64,000 nucleotides of DNA from Desulfosporosinus sp. FKB (GTDB lineage: Bacteria; Bacillota; Desulfitobacteriia; Desulfitobacteriales; Desulfitobacteriaceae): NCBI RefSeq assembly GCF_002196705.1, contig NZ_NADJ01000038.1:365420-429419 (forward strand), in the 5' to 3' direction. This document shows, one piece after another, positions 43,599 through 64,000 of the stretch (positions within the stretch are counted from its first letter, which is position 1; every line of letters starts with the position of its first letter). The notes below the pieces were generated by a model, which made no database searches, had not been told where the DNA came from, and saw only the letters and a program-made list of their open reading frames with translations. A program made the translations under genes and the position numbers.

Positions 43599-44048
43599 TC
43601 ATTGCGCCCCTTCGCATTTAGAACAATAGCCATAAAATTTTAAATCGTGGTCGGAAACTTTAAAATGATTTCGTTTCATAATGACAGCTTCTAAAGACTC
43701 TAATAAATCATCATCAAATTCCGAAACATTTCCACAGCGTAAGCAGATAAGGTGATGGTGATGATGATGTTCATCCTTACGACTAAATTCATAACGAGTT
43801 CGGCCATCTCCAAAATCGTTCTTAATAAGAACTCCAATTTCCGCCAATATATCTAGAGTCCGATAAACGGTAGCAAGACCTATCTCCGGATTTTCGTTTT
43901 TAACGAGCATATATACTTCTTCGGCGCTTAAATGCCGATCCACATGTTCCACAAACATGTGGAGAATCGTCTGTCGTTGAGGAGTTACTTTATAGGAGTG
44001 ATTACGCAGCAAGTTGCAGATATTCTCAAACGTTCTAAAATTCTCCAT
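43599..44048 (-). CDS. Fur-family metal/peroxide regulator
   Basis: 149 residues from ATG at 44048, after GGAGGGGGGG. Winged helix (SYKVTPQRQTILHMF, LATVYRTLDIL), a histidine-rich metal loop (DEHHHHHHLICLRCG) and a C-terminal CSKC. Two CxxC pairs fit the structural zinc site. Could be Fur, PerR or a zinc sensor; sequence does not settle it. Confidence 0.85.
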   Translation of the reverse strand: MENFRTFENICNLLRNHSYKVTPQRQTILHMFVEHVDRHLSAEEVYMLVKNENPEIGLATVYRTLDILAEIGVLIKNDFGDGRTRYEFSRKDEHHHHHHLICLRCGNVSEFDDDLLESLEAVIMKRNHFKVSDHDLKFYGYCSKCEGAQ

Positions 44049-50198: not shown

Positions 50199-50403
50199 AG
50201 GGTAGGAAATTCTCCCTACCCTCCCCGACTTGCCGTAAGATTTCAGGTTTCTGACCCCGCTTTCGCAGGTGGGCACCTAGTCCATGCTTTCCAACTTCCC
50301 TGTTTCAAAAAGAAAGGGCTTGCTGTAGTTACATGGCATTTAGTTCCCGTGTCATTAATAGGATCAAAACCATGAAGATCTCTACGCACAAGTCAGGCTA
50401 TGT
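50199..50403 (-). ncRNA. ssrS: probable 6S RNA
   Basis: The minus strand between 50403 and 50221 folds as a long rod. Closing stem CCTGACTTG pairs with CAAGTCGGG; GTAGAGAT with ATCTTAC; GGTTT and GATCC with GGGTC and AAACC; an internal bubble and a terminal hairpin (CCCT/AGGG) follow. A terminator hairpin GGGTAGG/CCTACCC is at 50199-50220. The size of about 185 bases and this layout are those of 6S RNA, which binds sigma-70 RNA polymerase. TATAAT lies just upstream of the 5' end. Confidence 0.7.
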
Positions 50404-60843: not shown

Positions 60844-60909
60844 TTGACATTTCTAAGATCATATATTACACTCCTTATTGAAACAATATTACATTAAGGA
60901 GTGTGTCCC
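60844..60909 (+). promoter_or_regulatory. inverted repeat and promoter region of the metal transporter
   Basis: TTGACA at 60844-60849 and TACACT at 60867-60872 are spaced by 17 bases. A perfect 10-base inverted repeat, ACACTCCTTA (60868-60877) and TAAGGAGTGT (60895-60904), covers the -10 and the RBS. It could be a Fur/Zur-type operator or an mRNA hairpin. Confidence 0.5.
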
Positions 60910-61815
60910 ATGTCTCCCAAACCTATCTACGTCTTTTGGACTATCGTACTTGTTTCTTTATTACTAGTCAGTGGCTGCAGTACACAGGCTCCAGCGGTTT
61001 CGACCCAGCCTAAAACGGTGGTTACTAGTATCTCTCCTATTGCGGATCTTATCAAACAGGTGGCGGGCGATAAAGTTAACGTCATTAATTTAGTGCCTGC
61101 CGGGAGCGATCCTCATGAATTCGAGCCTAAACCCTCAGACGTTCGGCAAGTTGCTGCTTCCAGCATCTTCTTCGCTAATGGTCTAGGTGAAGAAGTGTAT
61201 TTAAATAAAGTGATTTCCAATGCCGGTAATCCCAACCTCCGTACAGTTGTGCTGTCAAATGGCCTAACCATATTAGGCAAAGATCAGGGAGGAGAAGGCA
61301 ATCCCCATCTCTGGCTCGATGTGCAAAATGCCAAACAGTATGTTGAAACAATTCGTGATCAATTATCTCAGACTTATCCGGAAGATAAGCAGTACTTTAC
61401 TCAAAACGCTGCAGCGTATCTTACGAAATTGACGGAGCTTGATCAATGGATTCGCTCCCAAGTTTCCAGTCTTCCGCCAGAATCACGAAAGATGGTCGTC
61501 TTGCACGATGCCTGGAGTTATTATGCCAAACAATACGGCTTAACTTTCGTTCAGCCTTTACTGCATACCGGCGAAGCCGAACCCTCGGCTAAAGAGTACG
61601 CTGATTTAATCCAACTTATCCATGCACAAAAGATTCATGCCGTATTCAGCGAAGCAGGTTTTAATCCGAAGTTAGCGCAACAGTTAGCCTCAGAAACTGG
61701 TGTGAAATTTATCGACAATCTTCATGATGATACCTTAGGGGATACCCCGGACTCTAATTCCTATATTGCGATGATGAAAACGAATACCACAGTCATCGTT
61801 TCTGCTTTAAAATAA
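60910..61815 (+). CDS. znuA: zinc/manganese ABC transporter substrate-binding lipoprotein
   Basis: 301 residues from ATG at 60910, 8 bases after AAGGAG; a GTG at 60901 is inside that RBS. Lipobox LLLVSGCSTQ. Metal ligands lie at H in SDPHEFEPKPSDV, H in NPHLWLDVQNAK, H in VVLHDAWSYYAK and D in HDDTLGDTPD. A cluster A-I protein; zinc or manganese cannot be told apart by sequence. Confidence 0.85.
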   Translation: MSPKPIYVFWTIVLVSLLLVSGCSTQAPAVSTQPKTVVTSISPIADLIKQVAGDKVNVINLVPAGSDPHEFEPKPSDVRQVAASSIFFANGLGEEVYLNKVISNAGNPNLRTVVLSNGLTILGKDQGGEGNPHLWLDVQNAKQYVETIRDQLSQTYPEDKQYFTQNAAAYLTKLTELDQWIRSQVSSLPPESRKMVVLHDAWSYYAKQYGLTFVQPLLHTGEAEPSAKEYADLIQLIHAQKIHAVFSEAGFNPKLAQQLASETGVKFIDNLHDDTLGDTPDSNSYIAMMKTNTTVIVSALK

Positions 61816-61837: not shown

Positions 61838-62641
61838 ATGTCTGATAGTTTTGTCATAGAATTTGATCACTTTAGCCTCAAGTACGGCGATCGGCAAGTC
61901 CTTAAGGATATTCATCTGCGCATCCCTAAAGGATCCTGTATCGGAATCATTGGGCCTAACGGATCTGGAAAAACGTCTCTTATCCGCAGTATCGTTGGCC
62001 TCAACAAACCTTATCAGGGAGCAGTCCGCGTCTTTGGCGAACGACCTCAGCGCTCCTGGCGCCGCCGGCACCAAATCGGATATGTACCCCAGCTCAAATC
62101 CATCAACAAAGAATTCCCTATTTCCGTCTATGAAGTAGTCATGTTAGGCCGTGTCGGACGTCTCGGGCCTTTACATTTTCCCAGAAAAGGAGACCATCAA
62201 GTTGTTCAGGAATCCCTCAAACGCGTTAAAATGTTGGAAATTGCTGATCGTCCAATTGGCCAGCTCTCGGGGGGGCAACAACAACGAGTATTTATAGCCC
62301 GTGCTCTGGCCCAAGAATCAAAACTTTTGCTATTAGACGAACCTGCAACAGGACTCGATATTCCAACCCAGCAAAGTATTTACGAACTGCTCGAACAGCT
62401 TCACGAAGATGGAATAACAACCCTAACCACCACTCATGATCTCTTAGCTTTGGATTTTCACCACTTTGGCCGAATTCTTTGCTTAAATGAGCAAGTTATT
62501 GCCTTCGGACCACCTGAAAAAGTCCTGACACCAGCAATATTAACCCAAACATTTTCTGGACTTCCTTGGCCCCATCAACTCGTCGATGAGGATTCTCGTC
62601 TTTCGATTAAGGAGGATTCTATTTCATGCACTTGCTCTTAG
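61838..62641 (+). CDS. znuC: metal ABC transporter ATP-binding protein
   Basis: 267 residues. Walker [10 protein letters not shown], signature LSGGQQQR, Walker [13 protein letters not shown] and the H-loop THD are intact. Ends in a short cysteine tail (CTCS). Overlaps the permease start by 16 bases. Confidence 0.9.
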
Positions 62642-63483
62642 ACCCCCTTCATTATGCTTTTATGCAAAACGCTTTTATTGGGACTGTGGCAATTGGTATA
62701 TTATGTGCAGTCATCGGAAGTTTTGTTGTCTTACTGCGTCTAGCTTTCATTGGCGAAGGATTAGCCCACGGCTCTCTTGCAGGCTTGGCCATAGGTTACC
62801 TTCTAAATTGGGATCTCTACCTTGCTGCCAATTTTTATACGGTTGGTCTGGCGCTGCTCATCGGATTTGTCCATGCAAAAGCTAAGGTCACGCTAGATAC
62901 AGCCATCGGCATTATTTTCTCAACCTCAATGGCTTTAGGAATTGCTTTAATTAGCAGTATGAAATTTTACACAACGGATCTTACAGGATATCTCTTTGGT
63001 TCTGTTTTGGCCATCACGCCTTTTGACTTAAGAATAATATTAGGGGCATCCGTTCTTATCCTGTTAATTATAATTCTATTCTTTAAAGAATTTGTCTTCT
63101 ATGCCTTTGACCCGGAAATGGCTGAAGTTGCAGGCTTATCGCGAGGGATCCTTCATTATTCGATGCTCATCATGATCGCAATTACTGTCGTCATTGCCTC
63201 GCAGACTGTAGGGATTATATTGGTTACTGCCCTCTTAATCATTCCTGCTGCCTCAGCACAACAATGGACTCATTCCTTAAAAACACTCCTTCTGTTTGCT
63301 ATTATCTTTGGTCTAACCAGTGCCGTAATTGGCCTTTATATTTCTTACTACTTCAACGTTGCCTCGGGTGCAAGTATTGCCTTAACTGCTGCAGTAGTTT
63401 TCTTAGTTAGTCTTATTTTTTCAAGGGAACGCCAACCGCTTAGGCGAAGCTTTGGGCTAAAAGAAACTATAAAGAAACTATGA
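62626..63483 (+). CDS. znuB: metal ABC transporter permease
   Basis: 285 residues with about eight TM segments; GSFVVLLRLAFIGEGLAHGS and TVGIILVTALLIIPAASAQQ are typical of ZnuB/MntB-type permeases. Together with the two upstream genes it imports a divalent metal. Confidence 0.88.
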   Translation: MHLLLDPLHYAFMQNAFIGTVAIGILCAVIGSFVVLLRLAFIGEGLAHGSLAGLAIGYLLNWDLYLAANFYTVGLALLIGFVHAKAKVTLDTAIGIIFSTSMALGIALISSMKFYTTDLTGYLFGSVLAITPFDLRIILGASVLILLIIILFFKEFVFYAFDPEMAEVAGLSRGILHYSMLIMIAITVVIASQTVGIILVTALLIIPAASAQQWTHSLKTLLLFAIIFGLTSAVIGLYISYYFNVASGASIALTAAVVFLVSLIFSRERQPLRRSFGLKETIKKL

Positions 63484-63624: not shown

Positions 63625-64000
63625 ATGAACTATGAAGAAATTCTTCAATATATCCAGCAACAAGGATATCGCCTTACATCAGCTCGTAAGCACATTGTAG
63701 AAGTTCTTTGTCACAATTCCGATTATCTGGGAGCCTATGACATTCATCACATTCTAGAACAGAACGACAATCACATTGCAGTCGTTTCTATCTATCGTGT
63801 TTTGGAACTGTTGAACAGTATCGGTTTGCTGGAAAAAGAGGAATTTGGAAGCGGCGGAGAACGGTATTGTCTAAAAAACGCCGCTGAACAACATGGACAT
63901 CAGCTTATTTGTACCAAATGCGGCCAAAGTAAAGAGTTAGGTGACTGTCCCATTAGGCATCTTGCTCAAACTATTGAGGCTCAAAGTGGTTACCGTATTC
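63625..64000 (+). CDS. Fur-family regulator (probable Zur), cut by window end
   Basis: ATG with AGGAGATAACG upstream; the window ends after about 125 residues, so the end is missing. HTH (GYRLTSARKHIVEVL, AVVSIYRVLELL) and the metal loop HGHQLICTKCGQSKELGDC are visible. Its place directly after the metal transporter suggests it controls uptake of the same metal. Confidence 0.8.
   Translation, partial: MNYEEILQYIQQQGYRLTSARKHIVEVLCHNSDYLGAYDIHHILEQNDNHIAVVSIYRVLELLNSIGLLEKEEFGSGGERYCLKNAAEQHGHQLICTKCGQSKELGDCPIRHLAQTIEAQSGYRI

Follow-up and report, generated by a model that had tools for sequence, protein, structure and literature searches.

The window, a stretch of 64,000 nucleotides from Desulfosporosinus sp. 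FKB, ends in the genes of an ABC importer and a Fur-family regulator, all on the forward strand and preceded by a promoter whose -35/-10 pair (TTGACA-17 nt-TACACT) scores 10/12 and is of the sigma-70 type (Table 1). The regulator gene runs past the end of the window, and its full length is found on locus L147. Upstream of the promoter lies a cyclophilin gene, which is divergent. The predicted transcription start, inferred from the -10 element, falls seven bases after it and inside a 23-bp dyad, which starts two bases beyond the predicted -10. Elsewhere in the window there is a 6S RNA at 50218-50402 on the reverse strand (Rfam RF00013, 69.3 bits).

Table 1. Features of the znuA promoter and operon, in window coordinates.
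Feature	Position	Strand	Evidence
-35 element TTGACA	60844..60849	+	TTGACA or TTGACT in 16/16 orthologs
-10 element TACACT	60867..60872	+	TAnACT in 15/16 orthologs, TAAAAT in one
Left arm ACACTCCTTA	60868..60877	+	perfect 10-bp pairing with right arm in 2/16 orthologs, G000 (this genome) and G025
Proposed operator, 23-bp dyad TTATTGAAACAATATTACATTAA	60875..60897	.	centre 60886; 20-23/23 match to TTATTGAAAYANTRTTTCAATAA in 16/16 orthologs
7-1-7 core TGAAACA-A-TATTACA within dyad	60879..60893	.	predicted transcription start at left edge
Right arm TAAGGAGTGT with RBS AAGGAG 60896-60901	60895..60904	+	
znuA-like metal-binding lipoprotein, ABC importer	60910..61815	+	Pfam ZnuA PF01297 E=1.5e-82
znuC-like ATPase	61838..62641	+	Pfam ABC_tran E=3.7e-33
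znuB-like permease	62626..63483	+	Pfam ABC-3 E=3e-75
Fur-family regulator, proposed repressor, 152 aa, runs past window end	63625..64000	+	Pfam FUR E=1.6e-23 on in-window part

The original prediction described a perfect inverted repeat over the promoter and ribosome binding site (RBS) of the metal transporter, and that description holds. The 10-base arms ACACTCCTTA and TAAGGAGTGT are complementary at 10/10 positions across a 17-base spacer, the left arm takes in the last five bases of the -10 element, and the right arm contains the RBS, eight bases before the ATG at 60910. When extended, the arms reach 16 nt (88%) around a loop of 5 nt, and they share their centre, 60886, with the 23-bp dyad. 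Searched with a fixed spacer of 17 and at most 3 mismatches, the arm pattern has one match in the window against 0 expected; with spacers of 5-30, its single match in the 5.12-Mb genome is the exact one, so the repeat is unique. Perfect inverted repeats of at least 10 bp (loop 3-40) occur by chance in 0.3% of 20,000 random 66-mers with the composition of the intergenic region. The whole window has 22 of them against 3.4 expected, about a six-fold excess (the largest count in 50 first-order Markov sequences is 9), and some of the 22 may be terminators. Such repeats are thus rare at any single given promoter and common across the window, and with a window so rich in them rarity alone does not settle function.

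For the comparison across genomes, the closest znuA orthologs were first taken among 60 relatives, and then 16 strong matches (E<=1e-70) among 82 genomes of the class; for each, we took the best pattern match in the 330 bases upstream of znuA and then the best promoter before that match. The operon is present also in Desulfosporosinus sp. PR, in Paradesulfitobacterium ferrireducens and in metagenome-assembled genomes. All 16 orthologous promoters combine a 17-nt spacer with the -35 element TTGACA (10 genomes) or TTGACT (6), and in all 16 a 23-bp dyad with consensus TTATTGAAAyAnTrTTTCAATAA has its centre 14-17 nt beyond the last base of the -10. Its core, with consensus TGAAAyA-n-TrTTTCA, is an odd repeat of two heptamers (7-1-7), and all 16 promoters match the longer pattern at 20-23 of 23 positions. 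The pattern TTATTGAAAYANTRTTTCAATAA was built from 12 of the 16 sites, and only the remaining four (G061, G062, G063 and G067) are independent tests, with 22, 21, 22 and 22 of 23 positions matching. The 23-mer is identical in this genome (G000), G014 and G008. Counted from the centre, columns -10, -9, -7 to -3, -1, 3, 6 and 9 to 12 are invariant in the 16 genomes. Symmetry is less strict: the dyad of this genome is imperfect (8/11 core pairs), core pairing averages 8.75/11 over the 16 orthologs and is weak at offsets 2 and 4 (7/16 and 6/16 genomes), and the outer part averages 4.25/7. When core halves are paired with the partners of other genomes instead of their own, the mean is 8.80 instead of 8.75 of 11, which is conservation without covariation. 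For the outer arms, own partners give 4.25 and those of other genomes 3.71 of 7, and 1.4% of 5000 shuffles reach the own-partner value when kinship is ignored.

By these alignments, the conserved element is the 23-bp dyad that lies between the arms and partly under them, not the arms themselves. The match between the outer arms is largely due to the near complementarity of the -10 (..ACT) and the RBS (..GGAGT), with the dyad wedged between them; the outer pairing comes mostly from these two elements, and a small remainder is possibly real. It is unlikely, in our judgement, that the operator extends over the entire 37-bp palindrome with its outer arms, bound for instance by two overlapping dimers, with arms that add contacts in some lineages. 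The slight excess of own-partner outer pairing would fit such an operator, as would the perfect CAGC/GCTG extension in G066, where neither side is an RBS and the box is a perfect 31-bp palindrome, and the CTCC/GGAG pairs in G000, G014, G025 and G063. In E. coli, two Zur dimers occupy a single znuABC site, according to the part of a review available to us (PMC6103462). However, the pairing excess is small and leaves kinship aside, and pairing at the outer offsets 13, 17 and 18 is seen in no more than 7, 4 and 8 of the 16 genomes, respectively.

The original prediction offered the repeat either as a zinc-responsive operator or as a hairpin that hides the RBS. The hairpin would need a transcript beginning upstream of the left arm, in which ACACUCCUUA pairs with UAAGGAGUGU. 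An RNA taken from 60862 does fold at -15.1 kcal/mol (z -4.2), which none of 200 shuffles equals, and RNAs taken from 20 bases before the centre form some stem in 12/12 promoters tried (-6.0 to -17.1 kcal/mol). However, the predicted start lies 7-10 nt before the centre, inside the box, so that at most 2 left-arm bases would be in the mRNA (at most 1 in the 12 promoters folded) and none in this genome, where the left arm would be outside the message; nor is read-through expected from the upstream gene, which is divergent. In G066 and G067 the RBS is at least 38 bases downstream of the dyad centre, apart from the box and outside the stem. The perfect arms are present in only 2 of the 16 orthologs, and no Rfam family reaches its gathering score at the site. 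We therefore regard an RBS-hiding hairpin as highly improbable. The operator half of the prediction stands as regards conservation, which is complete (16/16) for the dyad, but not as regards the arms, for which the same 2/16 applies.

The 152-aa protein encoded at 63625, which had been named as the one to assay for binding, is the best candidate binder of the dyad, by linkage. Its orthologs (46-100% identity, aligned from the first or second residue to residue 138 or beyond) are in 16 of the 82 genomes, the same 16 that have the transporter. Among the other genomes of the class, matches at E<=1e-20 include nothing above 38% identity except a 48% fragment (residues 57-142) in G035, and at the locus of that fragment we find no importer genes. 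One TAG was counted in 3 of the 16 regulator matches; in the two inspected, G005 and G032, this codon ends the gene. The regulator gene is downstream of znuB in all 12 loci read, and the coordinates of the remaining four are consistent with this order; the distance between the znuB and fur matches is below 50 bases in most loci read, which suggests that znuA, znuC, znuB and fur are on one transcript; in the window the gap is 141 bases. Operator and regulator could also have been co-inherited with no interaction between them.

A PF01475 domain and matches to PDB sequences of Fur, Zur and PerR place the protein in the Fur family, as does its predicted fold. The 50 Foldseek matches listed are all Fur-family, with TM-scores of 0.43-0.60; the model used, of the G025 ortholog, is weak (pLDDT 78.9, pTM 0.59). 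Fur proteins hold a structural zinc by two Cys pairs (CxxC), and both pairs are present here (C96, C99, C136 and C139, 11 aligned orthologs), the last Cys being absent only in L064, at a contig end. The sensory site of Zur proteins includes a His-x-His whose two His stand at -5 and -3 relative to the first Cys of the CxxC. That motif is absent from the present regulators, which have Gly, Ala or Thr and then Gln at these places in 11/11 aligned orthologs and Ser and Gln in G032. Instead, His residues are found at -6 and -4, as H-[GAT]-H-Q in the 11 orthologs and H-S-H-Q in G032, in an alignment that could be off by one residue here, where the model has pLDDT below 50 (residues 87-90). The predicted model is too uncertain at that region to give a sensor geometry, which we discarded. 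As the regulator lacks the His-x-His of its known relatives, its metal may not be zinc.

The importer genes bear on the same question. Among the NCBIfam matches listed for them (for znuC, the best 25 of 189), none reaches its curated cut-off; the znuA protein scores 215.1 bits with the zinc model AztC and 214.8 with the manganese model Deinococcus MntC, both below cut-off. With matches below cut-off and scores so nearly equal, this library does not fix the importer subtype. In all 16 znuA orthologs the aligned ligand places are occupied by three His and one Asp, residues that we take to be the metal ligands. The Asp is the second of two neighbouring residues, the first of which is Asp as well in 12 of 16. 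At the third ligand place, the four printed alignments have His in two relatives of unstated metal and Glu in two manganese-binding ones. Zinc-binding ZnuA proteins carry a His-rich insert; one is found before the second ligand His in 4 of the 16 genomes, all of one genus (5-9 His against 1). Zinc is a plausible metal for the operon, and the term zinc-responsive, as originally applied to the repeat, is plausible to the same degree.

This genome has a second importer operon, on contig C31:167000-173500 (locus L146), in which a Zur-like gene is followed by znuC-, znuB- and znuA-like genes. An MntR-like gene, named by eye, is near it. The C31 operon is preceded by an exact TAAATCGTAATGATTACGATTTA, and allowing up to 3 mismatches yields no other such site in this genome. 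At the znuA promoter of the window there is no Bacillus-type Zur box TCGTAATnATTACGA, whose sole genome site is on another operon. At least two other Fur-family proteins are encoded in this genome, one of them at 43602-44030. With candidate genes of both kinds present, the dyad might be bound by another regulator, the Zur-like protein of the C31 operon or the Fur-family protein at 43602-44030. We give this little credence: the Zur-like operon has its own exact TAAATCGTAATnATTACGATTTA, once in the genome and unlike the dyad, this box (up to 3 mismatches) is in only 2 of the 16 dyad-bearing genomes, and Fur-family proteins with 28-38% identity to the 152-aa regulator are in many genomes without the operon. 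A single Zur box, located on another operon, together with its presence in 2/16 genomes, indicates that the dyad cannot simply be equated with the Zur box in these bacteria. Our preferred binder, the regulator encoded at 63625, has 29% identity with the Zur-like C31 protein, in which four consecutive His precede the CxxC, and has no such run.

A search with the strict 23-mer (up to 3 mismatches) suggests, from site counts, that the dyad has one main target, the znuA promoter. In 12 of the 16 operon-bearing genomes the znuA box is the only match; the other four have 5 further matches per strand, to be compared with 6 per strand for the reversed pattern in all 16. Ten genomes without the operon have 4 matches, against 2 for the reversed pattern. 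A degenerate 21-mer is too loose to define a genome-wide regulon: allowing up to 3 mismatches, it matches 48 times forward and 54 times reverse, where the reversed pattern matches 30 and 44 times. We also rejected a ComFB-like gene (named by eye) as a second target. Its palindrome, CCTTATTATTGA/TCAATAATAAGG, lies directly before the RBS at L166:1501-1523 (C6:50749-50771 of this genome) and is also present in G014; by eye, the dyad is not conserved in the upstream stretches of ten further genus members inspected out of 22 matching genomes. Eleven other genomes of the genus (L016, L017, L018, L020, L021, L023, L024, L025, L027, L029 and L030) have a znuA of 32-34% identity, and by eye these paralogs have a different dyad-like promoter element, of the ATGCAAATG...TTGCA kind. 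A dyad pattern taken from distant znuA paralog promoters was discarded, with 6 forward and 0 reverse matches in this genome, all at 3 mismatches, and a control of 3/3.

Taken at the level of sequence, the conserved promoter-plus-dyad and the linked regulator gene make it probable that the dyad is the operator of the Fur-family metalloregulator encoded at 63625, which would autoregulate znuA-znuC-znuB-fur. We infer that the metal-loaded regulator, most likely carrying zinc, would bind the dyad as one dimer or as two overlapping dimers. The dyad covers the predicted transcription start, and the bound regulator would block RNA polymerase there. When the metal is scarce, the repressor would leave and the four genes would be transcribed; with fur inside the operon, the regulator would also limit its own expression.

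The PerR box, TTATAATnATTATAA, shares with the present dyad an odd, A+T-rich palindrome, but its half-site is unlike. The same is true of the E. coli FUR box GATAATGATNATCATTATC, as given in the part of PMC545781 available to us. In contrast to these boxes, the only clear target of the present dyad is one ABC importer promoter. A further likeness is to the Bacillus-type Zur with its box TAAATCGTAATnATTACGATTTA, which in the available portions of PMC6103462 and PMC545781 is also a Fur-family protein with an odd 7-1-7 palindrome at the promoter of a ZnuABC-kind importer; its half-site is TCGTAAT, against TGAAAyA here. Zur-recognised sequences vary among species, as the accessible text of the review states (PMC6103462), and in two Desulfovibrio genomes the znuABC-zur operons have a palindrome of their own, in the portion available of Rodionov et al. 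2004 (PMC545781). The box of that znuABC-zur_D system, ATGCAACnnnGTTGCAT (PMC545781), differs from the present dyad in palindrome and lineage, in a comparison that sets boxes and not proteins side by side. The present operon is one more case of this kind, in which znuABC and a regulator have a private palindrome. Among the titles and beginnings of abstracts covered, no paper describes the box or the regulator.

A more specific reading, which we hold only tentatively and find rather doubtful, is that the regulator is a separate Fur branch with a rearranged metal site and the operator TGAAAyAnTrTTTCA, forming a private single-target importer circuit beside the Bacillus-type Zur and without cross-talk. 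If so, this genome would have two insulated zinc switches, perhaps for different metal levels or for a different metal. On our main reading, the circuit of regulator and box would be a switch of a fairly ordinary kind that recognises a sequence of its own. The finding puts forward an operator and a repressor that can be tested for a metal importer found in Desulfosporosinus and its relatives, and would extend the known range of Fur-family boxes by one half-site. It also illustrates how a conspicuous inverted repeat at a promoter can arise, with an operator squeezed between a -10 element and an RBS that are complementary to each other.
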